Shown here piece by piece: positions 7,023 to 31,345 of a DNA stretch of 64,000 nt. The stretch lies in NCBI GenBank assembly GCA_006739055.1, contig AP019702.1:1488501-1552500 (forward strand), written 5' to 3'. Both the position numbers and the translations under genes were made by a program. This DNA comes from Allostella vacuolata (GTDB lineage: Bacteria; Pseudomonadota; Alphaproteobacteria; ATCC43930; Allostellaceae). Numbering within the stretch: position 1 is the first letter of the stretch; each line of letters opens with the position of its first letter. Under the pieces are notes generated by a model. That model worked only from the letters and a program-made list of their open reading frames with translations, had not been told where the DNA came from and made no database searches.

Positions 7023-8033
7023 TCAGAAACCGCGGGCGATGCAGAACGCCACCACCTCGTCGAGCGCGTCGCGCACCGGGCCGGCGGGGAAGGGGGCCAG
7101 CGCCGCGCGGGCGGCGGCACCATAGTCCCGCGCGCGCTCCATCGTCGCCTCCAGCGCGCCGTGGCGGCGCAGCAGCATCTGGGCATGGGCCAGGTCGTCG
7201 GGCCCGTGCTCCTGGTCCTCCAGCGTGCGGCGCCAGAAGGCCCGCTCCTCGGCGTCGCCGCGGGCAAAGGCGATGACGATCGGCAGGGTGATCTTGCCGT
7301 CGCGGAAGTCGTCGCCGACCGTCTTGCCGAGCTCGGCCTGCTTGGCCGAATAGTCGAGCATGTCGTCGACCAGCTGGAAGGCGATGCCGAGGTTGAGGCC
7401 GAACGCCTCCATCGCGTCCGCCTCGGCCGCCGGCCGGCCGGCCACCACCGGGCCGATGCGGCAGGCGGCGGCGAACAGCTGCGCGGTCTTGGCGCGGATC
7501 ACCTCGAGGTAGGATTCCTCGGTGGTGCCGGTGTCGTTGGAGGTGATGAGCTGCAGCACCTCGCCCTCGGCGATGACGGCCGAGGCGTGCGAGAGGATGC
7601 GCAGCACCTCCAGCGAGCCGTCGGCCACCATCAGCTGGAAGGCGCGGCTGAACAGGAAGTCGCCGACCAGCACGCTCGCCTTGTTGCCCCACACGGCGTT
7701 CGCCGTCGCGATGCCGCGGCGCAGGTCGCTCTCGTCGACCACGTCGTCATGCAGCAGGGTGGCGGTGTGGATGAACTCCACGCAGGCCGCGAGCGAGACA
7801 TGGCGGTCGCCCGCATAGCCGCACAGGCGGGCGGCCGCCAGGGTCAGCATCGGCCGCAGCCGCTTGCCGCCGGCGGCGACGATGTGGCCGGCCAGCTGCG
7901 GAATCAGCGCGACCGGGCTCTGCATGTATTCGATGATGCGCTGGTTGACCTGGGCCAGGTCGTCGCCGACCAGGCGGGTCAGGGGCTCCAGCGACGGCGT
8001 GTCTTTCCGGTCGACGGTGGCGGCGACGGCCAA
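7023..8033 (-). CDS. ispB: Polyprenyl (octaprenyl/decaprenyl) diphosphate synthase
   Basis: A trans-type long-chain polyprenyl synthase of 336 residues making the ubiquinone side chain. The first aspartate-rich motif LLHDDVVDESD lies near residue 102 and the second, FQLVDDMLDY, near 228; GGKRLRPML near 62 is the substrate-binding block. The TTG at 8033 is chosen as the start because GAGGAA precedes it at good spacing and the protein then begins LAVAATVDRK like its alphaproteobacterial relatives. An ATG at 8087 would add 18 residues. It diverges from the DUF2007 gene. The chain length made (C40, C45 or C50) is not readable, so the symbol is provisional. Confidence 0.9.
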   Translation of the reverse strand: MAVAATVDRKDTPSLEPLTRLVGDDLAQVNQRIIEYMQSPVALIPQLAGHIVAAGGKRLRPMLTLAAARLCGYAGDRHVSLAACVEFIHTATLLHDDVVDESDLRRGIATANAVWGNKASVLVGDFLFSRAFQLMVADGSLEVLRILSHASAVIAEGEVLQLITSNDTGTTEESYLEVIRAKTAQLFAAACRIGPVVAGRPAAEADAMEAFGLNLGIAFQLVDDMLDYSAKQAELGKTVGDDFRDGKITLPIVIAFARGDAEERAFWRRTLEDQEHGPDDLAHAQMLLRRHGALEATMERARDYGAAARAALAPFPAGPVRDALDEVVAFCIARGF

Positions 8034-8178
8034 AACGGTTCCTCGGCAATCTGGCTGGTCTGTTGGCGACCGAGCATAGAAGCCCATCCGGCTCGGTCAA
8101 GCCGCGCGCGCCGCGCCGTGCAAGCATGGCAACGCACGACTCCGTGATATCGCGCCGGCCGTGATAGAACCATCCCCC

Positions 8179-8397
8179 GTGGTAGAACTCCTGCGAACCA
8201 ACGACGTGGTGCGACTGTCCTGGCTGACGGCCCTGCTGGCCGATGCCGGGATCGTGGTCATCGTCCTCGACCATCATGCCAGCCTGATGGAAGGCAGCAT
8301 CGGCGCCATCCAGCGGCGGATGATGGTGGAAGCGGGGGATCTCCAGGCGGCCCGGCGCGTGCTCGCGTCGGCCGGGGAATCCCTGCCGCCGGCCTGA
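8179..8397 (+). CDS. DUF2007 domain protein (putative signal-transducing protein)
   Basis: A 72-residue protein beginning VVELLRTNDVVRLSWL from a GTG start, with the ferredoxin-like DUF2007 pattern: DAGIVVIVLDHHASLMEGSIG and a closing DLQAARRVLASAG. DUF2007 proteins are small soluble modules of unknown ligand. A GTG at 8161 would add six residues; the later GTG fits the family better. It lies head to head with the polyprenyl synthase and 38 bases before the methyltransferase gene, an arrangement common in alphaproteobacteria. Confidence 0.82.
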   Translation: MVELLRTNDVVRLSWLTALLADAGIVVIVLDHHASLMEGSIGAIQRRMMVEAGDLQAARRVLASAGESLPPA

Positions 8398-8435
8398 CGG
8401 GCGGCGGCGGTCGAAAACCAGCGAAGAGGCAAGGC

Positions 8436-9224
8436 ATGAGCGGTCCACCCCCCAACCCCCCTTCGGCGCACACTCCCCCGGCCACGCCGATGGCGGTGAC
8501 CGACGACACCCTGCTGAACGGACGGGTCAAGCTGCGCCAGCCGCGCGACGGCTACCGCGTGGCCATCGACCCGGTGTTGCTGGCCGCCGCCGTGCCGGCC
8601 GCGGCGGGCGACATGGTGCTGGACGTCGGTACCGGCGTCGGCGCGGCCGCGCTCTGCCTCGCCTGGCGGGTGCCGGGCTGCCGGGTGGTCGGGCTGGAGC
8701 TGCAGCGGGCGCTGGGCCAGCTCGCCAGCCGCAACATCGACACCAACCGCTTCGACGACCGCGCCTCGGTGGTGATCGGCGATCTGCAGCGGCCGCCGCC
8801 GCGCCTGGCGCCGACCAGCTTCACCCATGTCATGGCCAACCCGCCCTACATGGAGGCCGGCCGGGCCGACCCCGCGCCCCATGCCGGCAAGGCGACGGCG
8901 ACCGTCGAGGGCGAGGCGGACCTGGCCGCCTGGGTGCGCTTCTCGCTGCTGATGGCCAGGCAGCACGGCACCGTCACCTTCATCCACCGCGCCGACCGTC
9001 TCGACCAGCTGCTGGCGCTCCTGAGCGGGCGGGTCGGGGACATCGCGGTCCTGCCGCTGTGGCCGGGCGCCGACAAGCCCGCCAGCCGGGTGATCGTCCA
9101 GGCCCGGCGCGACTCCAACGCCCCCCTGCGCCTCCTCCCCGGCCTGCTGCTGCACCGGCCGGACGGCGGCTACACGCCGGCCGCCGACGCCATCCTGCGC
9201 GGCGGCGGGCCGCTCGTCCTCTGA
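8436..9224 (+). CDS. TrmN6-like (tRNA1(Val) adenine-N6-type) methyltransferase
   Basis: A 262-residue S-adenosylmethionine-dependent methyltransferase of the small-domain/TrmN6 type. The SAM-binding motif I is LDVGTGVGAAAL (about residue 64) and the amino-methyltransferase motif is ANPPYMEAG near 132, which points to adenine or glutamine N-methylation. The close relative TrmN6 methylates A37 of tRNA1(Val); that target is inferred. The first 20 residues are rich in Pro and Ser and probably disordered. The gene stands between DUF2007 and the S49 peptidase on the same strand with short gaps (38 and 34 bases), so the three are likely one operon. Confidence 0.87.
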   Translation: MSGPPPNPPSAHTPPATPMAVTDDTLLNGRVKLRQPRDGYRVAIDPVLLAAAVPAAAGDMVLDVGTGVGAAALCLAWRVPGCRVVGLELQRALGQLASRNIDTNRFDDRASVVIGDLQRPPPRLAPTSFTHVMANPPYMEAGRADPAPHAGKATATVEGEADLAAWVRFSLLMARQHGTVTFIHRADRLDQLLALLSGRVGDIAVLPLWPGADKPASRVIVQARRDSNAPLRLLPGLLLHRPDGGYTPAADAILRGGGPLVL

Positions 9225-9258
9225 CCGTCCACGCCGCAACCGGAAGCCCGCACATCCC

Positions 9259-10101
9259 ATGCTGATCGACAGGGTCTGCCGCCGCCTCGGCATCCCGCGC
9301 CCGCCACTGGTGCCGGTCGTCCGCCTCGACGGCGTCATCGGGCGGACCGGGCCCGGCCGTGGCAGCGGGTTGACGCTGGCCGGGCTCGCCCCGGTGCTCG
9401 ACCGTGCCTTCGCCATGCCGGGGGTGAAGGAGCTGGCGCTGGTCGTCAACTCGCCGGGCGGGTCGCCCGCGCAGTCCTCGCTGATCGCACGGCGCATCCG
9501 CGACCTGGCCGCCGCCAAGGACGTCCGCGTCACCGTCTTCGTCGAGGACGTGGCGGCGTCGGGCGGCTACTGGCTGGCGCTGGCGGGGGACGAGATCATC
9601 GTCGACCCGGCCAGCCTGGTCGGCTCGATCGGGGTGATCGCGGCCGGCTTCGGCTTTACCGACGCGATCCGCCGCCTGGGGGTGGAGCGCCGGGTGCACA
9701 CCGCCGGCCAGCAGAAGTCCCTGTGGGACCCGTTCCTGCCCGAGAAGCCGGAGGACGTGGCCCGCCTGACCGCGATCCAGGCCGACCTGCACCGGGTATT
9801 CCAGGACCAGGTGACGGCCCGCCGCGGCGACCGCCTGAAGGGCCCGCCCGAGCTGCTCTTCTCGGGCGAGGTGTGGGTGGGCGGCCGCGCCGTCGAGCTT
9901 GGCCTCGCCGACGGCATCGGCGAGATCCGCTCCACCATGCGCGCCCGCCACGGCCAGGATGTCCGCCTGCCGCTGGTCAATCCGCCCGCGCGGCGCCGCT
10001 TTCCGTTCCTGCCGCGCCTGTCCGCCGGCCCGGCCGACTGGGTGGGGGCAGCGGTCGACGCGGCCGAGGAGCGGGCGACGTGGGGGCGGCTGGGCCTGTG
10101 A
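9259..10101 (+). CDS. S49 family serine peptidase (signal peptide peptidase SppA/SohB-like)
   Basis: A 280-residue ClpP-fold peptidase of the short SppA class. The strand that positions the substrate is VVNSPGGSPAQSS (about residue 73). The catalytic Ser is in VAASGGYWLA (about 100) and the catalytic Lys is probably the one in TAGQQKSLWDPF (about 153). Unlike classical SppA there is no N-terminal membrane anchor, so it may be cytoplasmic. It likely degrades cleaved signal peptides or small membrane-associated peptides. It follows the methyltransferase by 34 bases. Confidence 0.88.
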   Translation: MLIDRVCRRLGIPRPPLVPVVRLDGVIGRTGPGRGSGLTLAGLAPVLDRAFAMPGVKELALVVNSPGGSPAQSSLIARRIRDLAAAKDVRVTVFVEDVAASGGYWLALAGDEIIVDPASLVGSIGVIAAGFGFTDAIRRLGVERRVHTAGQQKSLWDPFLPEKPEDVARLTAIQADLHRVFQDQVTARRGDRLKGPPELLFSGEVWVGGRAVELGLADGIGEIRSTMRARHGQDVRLPLVNPPARRRFPFLPRLSAGPADWVGAAVDAAEERATWGRLGL

Positions 10102-10166
10102 CGCCGGAGAGCGGCGAGGCGGCAGCCGCCTTGACCCCTGCCGGCCGCACCCCCTAGAACCGGACG

Positions 10167-10442
10167 ATGTTCGGTCTCAGCCTGTCCAAGCTGATCACGC
10201 TCATCGGCATCATCATCGCCGTGTGGACGCTGTTCCGCTGGTTCTCCCGCGTTTCCGCCGCACGCGACGCCGCGCCCGGCCGGGTCGACGCCAACCCGGG
10301 CCGCCGGCCGGAGCGGGCGCGGCGGCGGGAGCCGGACCCGGTGCCGGTCGAGGACCTGGTCGCCTGCGCCGGCTGCGGCGCCTATGTGGCGGCGCGCGGC
10401 GCCAAGGGCTGCGGCCGGCCGAACTGCCCCTACCCGGGGTAG
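10167..10442 (+). CDS. Small membrane-anchored zinc-ribbon protein (PP0621-like)
   Basis: A 91-residue protein with one N-terminal transmembrane helix (about residues 6-25), a basic and proline-rich linker, and a C-terminal cysteine cluster CAGCGAYV...CGRPNC. This layout matches PP0621-family proteins, in which the four cysteines probably bind zinc; no function is established. It ends 13 bases inside the 3' end of the convergent Fic gene. It may be the last gene of the DUF2007-methyltransferase-S49 run. Confidence 0.75.
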   Translation: MFGLSLSKLITLIGIIIAVWTLFRWFSRVSAARDAAPGRVDANPGRRPERARRREPDPVPVEDLVACAGCGAYVAARGAKGCGRPNCPYPG

Positions 10443-27798: not shown

Positions 27799-28965
27799 AT
27801 GACCGCCTGCATCGTCGGCTGGGCCCACAGCAAGTTCGGCAAGCTGGAAGGCGAGACCCTGGAATCCCTCATCGTCCGGGTCGCGACCGATGCGCTGGCC
27901 GATTCCGGCCTCGCGCCGGGCGATATCGACGCGATCTATGTCGGCCACCTCAATGCGGGCTTCGTCCGCCAGGAGTTTCCCTCCTCGCTGGTGATGCAGG
28001 CATCTGACCAGTTCCGGTTCAAGCCGGCGACCCGGGTCGAGAATGCCTGCGCCACGGGCTCCGCCGCGATCCATCAGGGGCTCAACGCCATCGCCGCCCG
28101 CAAGGCGCGCCGCGTGCTGGTGGTCGGCGTGGAGAAGATGACGGAGATTTCCGGCCCCGCGGTCGGCGACATCCTGATCCGCGCCAGCTACCTGCCCGAG
28201 GAGGGCGAGGTCGAGGGCGGCTTCGCCGGGGTCTTCGGCCGCATCACCCAGGCCTATTTCCAGAAGCATGGCGACCAGTCGGACGCGCTGGCGCGCATCG
28301 CCGCCAAGAACCACCGCAACGGGGCGGTCAACCCGCTGGCGCAGATGCAGAAGGACCTCGGCTACGAGTTCTGCCGCACGATCTCGGACAAGAACCCCCT
28401 GGTCGCCGGCCCGTTGAAGCGCACCGACTGCTCGCTCGTCTCCGACGGGGCGGCGGCCGTGGTCCTGGCCGACCTCGACACCGCGCTCGGCCTGTCGAAG
28501 GCCGTGGTGTTCCGGGCGGCCGAGCACGTCAACGACTTCCTGCCCATGTCCAAGCGCGACATCACGCTGTTCGAGGGCTGCGAGGTCGCCTGGAAGAAGG
28601 CGCTCGGCGCCTCCGGGCTGACGCTGCAGGATCTCGACCTGGTGGAGACGCATGACTGCTTCACCTCGGCCGAGTTGCTGGAGTACGAGGCGATGGGCCT
28701 GACCGCGCGCGGCGACGGCGCCCGCGCCATCCTCGAAGGCTGGACCGAGAAGGACGGCAAGCTGCCGGTCAACCCCTCGGGCGGCCTGAAGTCGAAGGGG
28801 CACCCGATCGGGGCGACCGGCGTTTCCATGCATGTCCTGGCCGCCCAGCAGGTGACCGGCACGGCGGGCGGGATCCAGGTCCCGGGCGCCAAGATGGCCG
28901 GCATCTTCAACATGGGCGGCGCCTGCGTCGCCAACTATGTCAGCATCCTGGAGCCGCTGCGGTAG
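27799..28965 (+). CDS. Thiolase family protein (acetyl-CoA acyltransferase, SCP2-type)
   Basis: A 388-residue thiolase of the SCP2/acetyl-CoA acetyltransferase-like group. The nucleophile Cys is in RVENACATGSAAIHQG (about 85). The C-terminal His is in GGLKSKGHPIGATGVSMH (about 332-349), and a late Cys in MGGACVANY. It cleaves or forms acyl-CoA carbon-carbon bonds; the chain is not readable. The start ATG follows CGGAG; a TATACT sequence at 27760-27765 may be the -10 element. The longer open frame (27718) lacks support. The gene follows the LysR group but nothing shows they control it. Confidence 0.9.
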   Translation: MTACIVGWAHSKFGKLEGETLESLIVRVATDALADSGLAPGDIDAIYVGHLNAGFVRQEFPSSLVMQASDQFRFKPATRVENACATGSAAIHQGLNAIAARKARRVLVVGVEKMTEISGPAVGDILIRASYLPEEGEVEGGFAGVFGRITQAYFQKHGDQSDALARIAAKNHRNGAVNPLAQMQKDLGYEFCRTISDKNPLVAGPLKRTDCSLVSDGAAAVVLADLDTALGLSKAVVFRAAEHVNDFLPMSKRDITLFEGCEVAWKKALGASGLTLQDLDLVETHDCFTSAELLEYEAMGLTARGDGARAILEGWTEKDGKLPVNPSGGLKSKGHPIGATGVSMHVLAAQQVTGTAGGIQVPGAKMAGIFNMGGACVANYVSILEPLR

Positions 28966-29389
28966 GCGTGGTGCCTGGACCGGTCGCCCCCTTTTGATTT
29001 CAAGGGGCGTACTGGCGCAAGAATTCTCTGGGGAATCCGGGCGGTGTCTCTATCGCATCGCCCTGGAACGGAGGGGGCAGCGGCAGGTTGACGGGAATGT
29101 GTAGGCGACGCTGCGACCGCTCGGCTGGCGCAGCGTCGATGCGATGCCCACCTGTCGGCCGAAGGGGGTGACCATGTCGAGCTCGAAGCCATGATTACGA
29201 TGAACGATGCCTTCAAGAAGGAGAACGAGGAGCGCATCGGTCAGCTCCTGGCGGAGATCCGGCGGATAGCCGAGACGGCCGCGACGGGAAAGACGGATGC
29301 GGCACAGGCTTCGGCCGATGCTCGGAAGGCCCCGGCAAGACAAGCCAAGCGCGCCTAAGGCGATCGAAGCCGGCCTCTCCGGCGCGAGG
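28966..29389. other. 424-base stretch with no confident gene
   Basis: Between the thiolase and the nitrilase-like gene no long convincing frame exists. Third-position G/C preference, strong elsewhere, is weaker in every frame. Two candidates compete: a 55-residue plus-strand frame (29191-29358), listed separately, and a minus-strand frame (29050-29427) that overlaps the neighbour and has no family resemblance. No tRNA, terminator or mobile-element end is visible. Confidence 0.6.
29191..29358 (+). CDS. Candidate 55-residue helical protein, unknown
   Basis: The frame begins MITMNDAFKKENEERIGQLL and continues as a charged helix likely to form a coiled coil (to about residue 28), then an Ala/Lys-rich tail ending ARQAKRA. 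Amino-acid composition is protein-like and most third bases are G or C, but no good ribosome binding site precedes the ATG and no homologue is recognised. It could equally be chance in a non-coding gap. Confidence 0.3.
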   Translation: MITMNDAFKKENEERIGQLLAEIRRIAETAATGKTDAAQASADARKAPARQAKRA

Positions 29390-31276
29390 CTATGAACGCC
29401 AGACCGGCGCGGCGATGCCCGCTGCAAGAGGCACCACCCCGGTCAATCGCCAAGCCTGCGAATTGGCGTCACCCGTCCGTCCGTCGAGCGTTGCCTGGCG
29501 CGTCTGGATCGGCGTCAACGTGATGCACAGCGCATCCGAGCCGTGCGGGAGATGCAGTTCCCGAAGCTCCCGATCATCCCGCCAGAGGGCGACGCAACGG
29601 CTCTTCGGATGATACCCGGTGCGATTGACGCGCTCGATCAGGCGGAGCGATGTCAGGGTCAGCACCGAGGAGCCCGGATCCTCCGCCAGCACCGTCGCAT
29701 ATCGGCCCGGCCACCGGGCGATGAGCTGGGCGCTGTCCATCAGCAGGGCGATCACGATGTTCGGCCCGATCGCACGCAGCAGTTCCTGCGCGGGGTCGAC
29801 CCGGGCAAGGTCCTCGCAGATGAGCGTGGTCACCGTGGTTTCGCCGCGCAGGACGCCGATCGTCAGGCTGCGGCTGAGGACGTCCAGTTTCTCCCACCAG
29901 GTCCGGGACGGGTCCAGGGATGCTCCCAGCGCATAGCTGGCGATCTGGCCGTGATCGAGCTTCCAGCGATGGTGCTTCTGGCGGATGTCCCGCACCATCG
30001 CGGCCTGCTTCTCCATCGGTCCCGGCAGGCTGGATCGCGGCGGGGCGATGATCGCGGCCGCGAAGTTGCCGGGCCTGCCGTGCTCGTCGGAATGCAGGCC
30101 GGATATGATCAGCTCCAGGCTCGGAAAGGCGCGGATCAACTCCTCGACCAGGTGGTCGAAGCATGGTCTCGACAGGGCGAGTTCGGGAAAGACGATGCCG
30201 TGCACGTCGCTCAGGTCCCGCTCCGCATCCTTGATCAGGGCGCAGACGAACTGTGTCAGCTCGTCGTAGGGATGACGGTCGTCGGCGGGGCACGCCTCCG
30301 GCAGCGGCGCGACCTTGAACCAGCCCCACGCACCGACGGTGCCGGGCGGGGACAGGCCGTCGGCGCGAAAGGCCCGCGCGGGGATCTCGTAGGGATAGGG
30401 GATCAGGATCAGGTTGAGCGGCGCCGGGGCGTGGGTCGGCTCCCGCGCCGAGCCGAGCGGCGCATTCCATCGCGCCCGCGCCAGCCCGCGCGGCGGCAAC
30501 AGGGCCAGATTGTGGGAGAGGGAACGCAGCGTGCAACCCAATGCCGGCGTGCGCGACTTGGGCAGGACGCAGGCGATGTCCGGTGCTGCGGCGGAGATCG
30601 TGTAGGCGCCCGAGCCCTCGCCATCGGCCTGCTCGATCAGGGCGTTCCGCATGCGGAATTCCACCGCGACCATCAGAACCTGGCTCTGGCCATTCGGTGC
30701 GGGGAGTTCGGCCGCAAAGCCGACGTTTCGACAGGCCTCGTCCGCAATGGCCATCAGGGCAAGCGCGGCCTTCCACCAGACGGGCGCCGCTTCGCTCGGG
30801 CCCAATGGCTCGAACAGGGATCGCGACCAGGCGGCACGCACTTTCTTCCATTCGCGCACCACCGCCGGCGGCGGGCGCAGGGTGACGGACGCGATGCCTC
30901 GCGGATCTTTCAAGGAAACCACGGAGTCTGCCCACGCCGCAGCGGTGTCCGTCCAGGACGTTCGGTCGAGGTCCGTGACCAGAACCCGCCGCACACCGTC
31001 CACGTCGGGGGTGACCGTCGTCGCTTGGATATGATGGTACGCACCGCTTCGCGCGAGGAGGCAGGCTGCTGCCGCAAACACGTCGATCGGGTCGCCGGGC
31101 ATTTTCGCCCATGGGTCGCCCTTGCCGCCGGCGGCAAGGGCGACCCATGGCCGCTTGATCTCGCCGCGCTTGCGGTCGGCGAATACGATCCAGTTCGGGG
31201 TTCCGCTGGGGAACAGCGCCTCGACGAGGTCGCCCACGGTCATGTCGGGAAGGTCGGCCGAGTAGTCGCGCTGCAT
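29390..31276 (-). CDS. Nitrilase-like domain protein, 628 residues, function unknown
   Basis: The C-terminal half reads as a carbon-nitrogen hydrolase (nitrilase) fold. A Glu is in GIVFPELALS (about residue 360), a Lys in the RQKHHRWKLD region (about 436) and a Cys in TTLICEDLAR (about 484), the order and spacing of the Glu-Lys-Cys triad. The first 290 residues match no family I know and carry no signal peptide. Nitrilase-like domains of this divergent kind are also found in bacterial conflict proteins, for example fused to reverse transcriptase in DRT type 1; no reverse transcriptase is present here. The ATG at 31276 is the only NTG start after an upstream stop. It stands alone, 69 bases downstream of the DUF411 gene. 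Confidence 0.72.
   Translation of the reverse strand: MQRDYSADLPDMTVGDLVEALFPSGTPNWIVFADRKRGEIKRPWVALAAGGKGDPWAKMPGDPIDVFAAAACLLARSGAYHHIQATTVTPDVDGVRRVLVTDLDRTSWTDTAAAWADSVVSLKDPRGIASVTLRPPPAVVREWKKVRAAWSRSLFEPLGPSEAAPVWWKAALALMAIADEACRNVGFAAELPAPNGQSQVLMVAVEFRMRNALIEQADGEGSGAYTISAAAPDIACVLPKSRTPALGCTLRSLSHNLALLPPRGLARARWNAPLGSAREPTHAPAPLNLILIPYPYEIPARAFRADGLSPPGTVGAWGWFKVAPLPEACPADDRHPYDELTQFVCALIKDAERDLSDVHGIVFPELALSRPCFDHLVEELIRAFPSLELIISGLHSDEHGRPGNFAAAIIAPPRSSLPGPMEKQAAMVRDIRQKHHRWKLDHGQIASYALGASLDPSRTWWEKLDVLSRSLTIGVLRGETTVTTLICEDLARVDPAQELLRAIGPNIVIALLMDSAQLIARWPGRYATVLAEDPGSSVLTLTSLRLIERVNRTGYHPKSRCVALWRDDRELRELHLPHGSDALCITLTPIQTRQATLDGRTGDANSQAWRLTGVVPLAAGIAAPVWRS
31109..31150. repeat. 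Perfect 42-bp palindrome inside the nitrilase-like gene
   Basis: Two 21-base arms meet with no spacer: CCATGGGTCGCCCTTGCCGC (31109-31128) plus C is mirrored exactly through 31130-31150. With one mismatch the symmetry extends to 31106-31153. It falls in codons for about residues 43-56 of the nitrilase-like protein (PWVALAAGGKGDPW). On RNA it would form a very stable hairpin about 125 bases into the coding region. No U-run follows on either strand, so it is not an intrinsic terminator. Confidence 0.92.
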
Positions 31277-31345
31277 GCGGTCGACGATCCCGGATCGGCA
31301 GAAATAGGTCCAGGATATTCTTTCTGTTGTCGCGCCAGGCCGGCG

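Follow-up and report, generated by a model that had tools for sequence, protein, structure and literature searches.

A nitrilase-fusion gene and a small convergent reading frame in Allostella vacuolata as a possible reverse transcriptase-free conflict module

Nitrilases joined to reverse transcriptases (RTs) are known from phage defence, and these RT-nitrilases are the described systems closest to the locus reported here. DRT1 (class 3 DRT, PDB 9YFD) carries, according to excerpts of PMC13275509, a C-terminal nitrilase with a catalytic Cys in a large protein; the nitrilase is an effector that the system cannot do without (C1116A removes immunity), protection takes the form of abortive infection, and the task of restraining the enzyme and sensing the trigger is done by DNA adducts and filaments. 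In the same excerpts, the authors propose that this nitrilase cleaves an amide or nitrile bond, the target being a small molecule or protein that is essential, ask what its substrate is, and call nitrilases uncommon in defence systems. A UG5 system (RT-nitrilase + 1TM), described as validated in extracts of PMC9122126, has a second gene, a transmembrane effector. A further paper contains text on nitrilase (PMC8934634). We found no description of an RT-free nitrilase defence family in the openly licensed PMC literature.

Here, we describe a nitrilase gene of Allostella vacuolata in a window of 64,000 nucleotides (the whole stretch of DNA that was analysed; contig AP019702.1, positions 1,488,501 to 1,552,500). 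Its product resembles DRT1 in placing a C-terminal nitrilase with a catalytic Cys in a large protein, and both genes are accessory; it differs from DRT1 in having no RT domain, an N-terminal domain of another kind and a small partner ORF. A second gene also accompanies the nitrilase in the window family, as in the UG5 system of PMC9122126 (again from the extracts), but in place of a transmembrane effector the family has small charged proteins of several families, and no RT. Since relatives are often accompanied by a tiny neighbour gene, the locus is probably an undescribed two-gene conflict module; that it is an RT-less, mobile module of a nitrilase and a small protein is a reading to which we give about even odds.

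The nitrilase domain and the N-terminal domain

A preliminary description had placed a 628-residue protein with a divergent nitrilase domain at 29390-31276; its boundaries and length proved exact, and the reading frame lies on the minus strand, which had been left unstated. The features of the locus are as follows (window coordinates).

29390..31276, minus strand: 628-aa nitrilase-fusion protein (P0001), from an ORF with an ATG start, relatives and a model
29429..30439, minus strand: nitrilase domain, about residues 280-616 with E365, K434 and C487, from model, profiles and alignment
30425..31276, minus strand: N-terminal domain, residues 1-284, mixed alpha/beta, with conserved D179, K240, G247 and R251, from the model
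29191..29358, plus strand: predicted 55-aa small ORF (MITMNDAFKK...), convergent with the nitrilase gene, probable partner
31106..31153, no strand: 48-bp near-perfect palindrome in the nitrilase gene, residues about 42-57 (low-confidence loop)
28967..31333, no strand: about 2.37-kb segment with the nitrilase gene and the small ORF, absent at the site in three congeners
28935-29237 and 29050-29427, minus strand: examples of further mechanical ORFs within the segment

The Glu, Lys and Cys of the nitrilase triad had been assigned correctly: VFPELA holds E365, KHHRWK holds K434 and LICEDL holds C487, and we found all three identical in 86 of 86 aligned rows (85 relatives and the window). H436, W438, E462, D179 and K240 are likewise invariant in all 86 rows. 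Because the search patterns that gathered the loci were built around ICEDLA plus LLMD (genome contigs) or KHHRW plus LLMD (three viral loci), selection accounts for part of the invariance of C487 and D514 and, in three rows, of K434; E365, D179, K240 and E462 lie outside the patterns. The alignment indicates that the Glu-Lys-Cys residues stand in order and that the nitrilase domain is apparently intact.

By sequence searches the domain is indeed divergent. Pfam and NCBIfam returned nothing for the window protein at E ≤1, and the PDB, searched by sequence, returned two chance matches and no more. In the HMM comparison that had been proposed, PADLOC produced one weak match (RTasNitrilase, E 0.015, residues 317-414) and Pfam CN_hydrolase did not match the window protein. 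P0001 does not reach the CN_hydrolase gathering score, and a Pfam match was seen in 1 of 75 members at E ≤0.05. The sole link of the P0001 family to Pfam CN_hydrolase is an Azospirillum protein (L015), which matches that model at E 2.2e-9 and aligns with the nitrilase family in hhalign at probability 97.8 and E 1.2e-12; the E, K and C residues line up. The motifs of the window family and L015 pair as QKHHRW/TKLHCW, ICEDLAR/ICEDLGR and LMDSAQ..RW/VMDSGL..RW. Relative to the nitrilase superfamily that L015 represents (PF00795, CN_hydrolase), the window family would have the same fold in the model, but it falls below the Pfam thresholds and has an extra 280-residue N-terminal domain that was undetected in L015. 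At L015 itself (7709-10307), tightly packed genes for 179-aa and 182-aa proteins lie on either side, another possible partner arrangement.

We modelled the full protein with AlphaFold2 from 75 rows (pLDDT 88.7, pTM 0.92) and found a nitrilase fold spanning about residues 280-615 by Foldseek and VIA-align. The best structural match was 3p8k (Z 17.0, rmsd 3.9, 238 residues, range 280-600), and 77 PDB chains matched the model at E ≤0.001 in Foldseek; the structural neighbours among the matches listed (best 50 of 77) are amidases, formamidases, Nit2 and the glutaminase part of NAD synthetase. The predicted model therefore contains the alpha-beta-beta-alpha nitrilase fold whose absence would have spoken against the original assignment. 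With this fold and the profile matches of L015, we hold the nitrilase identity of the protein to be practically certain.

The first 290 or so residues had been said to match nothing recognisable, and they still do not. Modelled alone from 73 rows, residues 1-284 gave pLDDT 83.4 and pTM 0.86. Foldseek of this domain against PDB and BFVD found no match with E ≤0.001, VIA-align found no chain with Z ≥2 among 699 aligned, Pfam placed nothing over the first 284 residues in 75 members, and the N-terminal profile detected neither the RT-nitrilases nor L015. The domain is a candidate for a new or unrecognised fold, judged from the model and from fold searches that covered PDB and BFVD.

The 48-bp palindrome lies within the part of the gene that encodes this domain and reads RPWVALAAGGKGDPW on either strand. 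We rejected it as a dispersed element, the 17-base half-site having no other exact copy in the genome. With 1-2 mismatches, the half-site occurs at 51 or more further places, versus 5 and 4 for the reversed-pattern control; among the mismatch matches listed, none formed a second palindrome.

Relation to RT-nitrilases and spread of the family

The preliminary description had pointed to the nitrilases of DRT systems as kin, and profile comparison agrees. Three UG5 RT-nitrilases (L102, L104, L105), which match the PADLOC model RT_UG5-nitrilase over the model's length, aligned with the family at probability 90.2 and E 1.5e-6; E and C are in register and K434 is one column from the Lys there. By profile, the UG5 RT-nitrilase is the closest defence nitrilase among those compared. 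Four RT-nitrilases of about 1290 aa (L107-L110), taken to be DRT1-like by their size, gave probability 44 and E 2.3e-4. Conversely, RT_UG5-nitrilase matches 17 of 75 family sequences at E ≤0.01 (best 1.3e-7) and RTasNitrilase matches 2 of 75 at the same threshold, the window protein being in neither set. The likeness to DRT nitrilases is weak and confined to the nitrilase domain; the window nitrilase is a distant relative of the nitrilases of RT-nitrilase phage-defence proteins.

We found no RT family with Pfam in the window protein or in 75 members, and the sole PADLOC match of the window protein covers nitrilase residues. A profile of 24 RT sequences, run without a held-out positive control, gave no match in a six-frame translation of the window. 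Across the family, an RT partner was rejected: the same profile matched in 1 of 86 sources alone, about 6.7 kb from the nitrilase, with some loci having little flanking DNA.

Relatives were gathered in several ways. With a single protein as query, the class search at E ≤0.001 matched 6 of 385 genomes, of which two were weak and were not recovered by profile, and a class-wide profile search matched 4 of 372 genomes at E ≤1e-15 (the window's own and three of one other genus). Genome contigs queried with a single protein led nowhere; queried with an alignment, they yielded 173 relatives among 214 candidate stretches, 80 of which were kept, and viral contigs yielded 3 relatives among 59 candidates. 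By tblastn, plasmids gave 18 records, six weak ones from Azospirillum and 12 clear ones at E ≤1e-38 with some near-copies among them, and phages gave zero matches. The 91 loci were reduced to 85 by removing L015, fragments, copies that were truncated, frameshifted or listed on the minus strand of their locus, and near-copies above 85%. Row set A2 is these 85 minus L014, A3 is also minus L005 and nine plasmid-record rows, and A4 is minus L059 and L084.

In the 86-row set, 67 loci belong to Pseudomonadota (by class, 55 Alpha-, 9 Beta- and 2 Gammaproteobacteria), and Actinomycetota, Verrucomicrobiota, Planctomycetota and Acidobacteriota have one locus each, all MAGs by title; this count excludes 14 loci and the window, including plasmid records, one of them from Deinococcus aetherius. 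The nitrilase family looks widespread, sporadic and uncommon. Two loci are unusual. In Methylorubrum extorquens CM4 (L011, 8719-13123), an IS21 element interrupts the family gene and a C-terminal piece lies beyond it, and in D. aetherius (L014, 8380-13852), an 808-aa version with a C-terminal extension is followed by an AAA_16-TPR protein.

The small reading frame beside the nitrilase gene

The gene had been regarded as an isolated orphan beside a poorly coding gap, and here the preliminary description has to be corrected. Besides having relatives, the gene is adjoined by a convergent 55-aa ORF, its probable partner, which occupies the supposed gap (29191-29358, plus strand); the two genes stand tail to tail with their stops 31 bp apart.

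To look for such ORFs across the family, we clustered 282 candidate small ORFs lying beside the nitrilase gene in 86 loci and found that cross-locus clusters cover 33 of the 86. The clusters of L031 and L051 are probable artefacts; curation and profile extension took these two out and brought L028 and L099 in, leaving eight groups in 33 loci.

Convergent with the nitrilase gene: group A (7 loci), group B (6 loci), group H (2 loci)
Downstream: group C (7 loci), group D (3 loci), group E (3 loci), group G (2 loci)
Upstream: group F (3 loci)

The same clustering around random other genes covered 0, 5, 0, 4 and 11 of 78 loci, a control that leaves likeness by descent uncontrolled because its anchors are unrelated to each other. 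Codon position 3 varies most within groups A, B and E (0.66, 0.65 and 0.68, respectively), the differences at positions 1 and 2 being 0.39-0.55 and 0.38-0.44, a pattern as in real genes to judge by the codons. The codon figures of group C were set aside because its L075 row is a wrong ORF.

On a nitrilase tree of the 86 rows (a quick build in which long branches were flagged), each small-ORF group forms one side of a branch. The group labels require 7 changes on this tree versus a shuffled mean of 22.4, and 0 of 200 shuffles came as low. Within a group the hosts vary; the members of group A come from Mesorhizobium, Azospirillum, Bradyrhizobium, Sphingomonas, Devosia, Rhizobium and a Hyphomicrobiaceae MAG. 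Co-inheritance is seen in about one third of the loci, and from these sequences we infer that nitrilase and small ORF move together as a unit.

The window belongs to the 53 of 86 tree rows with no small partner assigned to a group. Its nitrilase shares an open fork of support 89 with five further rows and the clade of group B. In the open set, its small ORF reaches E 0.052 with group B. No labelled clade is nearer, and the small ORF scores 8.2 bits with this group, a value reached by 3 of 2000 shuffles; with L021 added, which is on the window's own branch and was chosen afterwards, it scores 19.3 bits, reached by 0 of 2000. L021 and L020 themselves score -0.6 and -0.5 bits against group B. Pfam found nothing above its curated scores in ten small proteins, and the annotation of several plasmid records lists small partners as hypothetical proteins. 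We regard a two-gene unit as very likely for the family and as likely, with somewhat less assurance, for the window.

Two adjacent co-inherited genes, one of them small and clade-specific, could also be a toxin-antitoxin or addiction module that has no phage role, in which the small protein would neutralise a toxic nitrilase and the pair would stabilise plasmids or islands. The tree-congruent partners (33 of 86 loci, weaker for the window) fit this, as do the plasmid relatives (12 clear among 18 records, some near-copies). The order and strand of the partner vary, however, among convergent, downstream and upstream, and most type II toxin-antitoxin pairs show no such variation. We consider this explanation unlikely, though it is the strongest rival to a conflict module.

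Chromosomal site, neighbours and possible role

The behaviour of a cargo gene, which had been suggested, is borne out by the site as well as by the relatives on plasmids. The congener genome G744 has the sequences that match the window up to 28966 and from 31334 only 7 bp apart, and in G182 the flanks of the segment are 355 bp apart. A third congener (G745, a draft of 570 contigs) has 1551 bp of other sequence between window positions 28965 and 31393; this insert (L146, 1417-2967) carries ORFs whose products resemble, by eye, a SnoaL-type protein, a HAD-type hydrolase and a transposase fragment. The site in G745 is filled with other ORFs and is therefore variable. P0001 is absent from all three congener genomes, and the 55-aa ORF has weak chance-level matches alone there (E 0.03 or worse). 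Since the segment is missing at this site from 3 of 3 congeners, this is the one strain that carries it; its site is variable, and the sequences are most simply explained by gain.

By eye, the genes that flank the segment look like a thiolase and copper-resistance genes, and in a congener both adjoin, the nitrilase gene missing between them. We saw no recombinase in the 2.37-kb segment. A promoter or terminator was rejected: no sigma-70-type site was found, and one terminator-like site was found versus 1.0 expected.

Neighbours were clustered as ORFs of at least 90 aa, called with a simple gene caller, around 91 loci, and no large partner was found at a fixed place. A conserved metabolic operon, the other outcome that would have spoken against the preliminary description, was rejected: the largest clusters, by eye ABC-type (15 loci), LysR-type (12 loci) and resolvase-type (7 loci), lie at scattered distances. 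A large directly upstream gene as general partner was also rejected, no single family recurring; upstream genes include patatin-family genes of different size in L031 and L064 and a GTPase-like P-loop protein in L008. Three neighbours lie very close to the nitrilase gene: in Bradyrhizobium (L064, 7909-10002) the gene for a 697-aa patatin-family protein ends 11 bp before it; at L069 (1259-3535) the distance to the upstream gene is 28 bp, and the product of that gene, of 758 aa, has a weak match of nucleoside deoxyribosyltransferase type; and at L047 (11735-12232) a gap of 16 bp separates the nitrilase gene from a following gene for a nucleoside 2-deoxyribosyltransferase (Pfam E 2.5e-31).

These neighbourhoods bear on whether the protein is an accessory metabolic amidase or nitrilase that acts on an environmental nitrile or amide, the small gene encoding a chaperone, a regulator or something unrelated. 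The intact catalytic residues agree with such an enzyme, and the best structural neighbours among the matches listed are metabolic amidases, formamidases and NAD synthetase glutaminase domains. Against it are the lack of a metabolic neighbour at a fixed place in the 91 loci and the sporadic occurrence in the class (4 of 372 genomes at E ≤1e-15), and we think it has a low probability, below that of an addiction module. Less probable again is a protein- or peptide-modifying pair, in which the small protein would be the substrate of the nitrilase (deamidated or condensed, for example), a signal or a peptide product. Enzyme and small protein do co-diverge by clade, but we saw no recurring fixed-place transporter, nor protease, in the 91 loci and, by eye, no obvious modified residue common to the partner groups. 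A degenerate or split class 3 DRT, with an RT acting from elsewhere in the genome, would account for the kinship with RT-nitrilases but is very improbable given the single RT, about 6.7 kb away, in the DNA covered for 86 sources, which is short at some loci, and an N-terminal profile that does not detect RT-nitrilases.

For the conflict module, we also looked at defence genes nearby. Within 1.5 kb of the nitrilase gene are GajB (L098), a CBASS cyclase (L077), ThsB (L079), a patatin effector (L031), JAB (L046) and type II restriction-modification enzymes (L091, L055). Ten defence-like neighbour proteins were picked by eye and 8 of the 10 match PADLOC, each at E <1e-38; those of L030 and L069 gave no PADLOC match (L069 at E ≤1e-8). 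Near genes (within 1.5 kb; 130 of 202 genes) matched 160 PADLOC models and far genes (beyond 6.5 kb; 130 of 244 genes) matched 17, but this contrast does not establish enrichment because the model counts are redundant, eight defence proteins alone accounting for up to 113 of the 160 near models. The far set also includes Qat, SoFic and candidate genes. By eye, other loci have integrase- or resolvase-like neighbours. Two observations weigh against a conflict module: many relatives, the window's copy too, stand by eye beside housekeeping-looking genes, and 53 of the 86 tree rows have no assigned small partner.

We judge a conflict role of the module, by analogy with the RT-nitrilases, to be roughly a coin-toss; if it has one, phage defence by abortive infection is the most likely form. 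The first gene would supply an amidohydrolase of the nitrilase superfamily that keeps its catalytic residues and lies behind a domain of new or unrecognised fold. The second would supply a small, charged, clade-specific protein kept with the nitrilase through transfer between hosts. By analogy with DRT1, the nitrilase would be the effector and may act by hydrolysis of an amide or nitrile bond, with an essential small molecule or protein as its target, and the N-terminal domain, the small protein or both may restrain it and sense the trigger.

The enzyme domain is already known and its use in defence has precedent; the RT-free architecture, the N-terminal domain and the small co-inherited partner are what we did not find described in the literature searched. 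Tentatively, and with some doubt, these may mark an undescribed family that combines an RT-independent nitrilase effector with a sensory or regulatory domain whose fold is new, under the control of small proteins of at least eight families. It is equally tentative that this undescribed family is found mainly in Pseudomonadota, with a Deinococcus plasmid and single records in four further phyla. Its N-terminal domain has a confident model for which no structural match was found in PDB or BFVD, and the small partners may be an overlooked component of the system. As a smaller, RT-free relative in a two-gene unit, the nitrilase would be a simpler protein for finding the substrate of nitrilase effectors, and it could reveal how such an enzyme is restrained.
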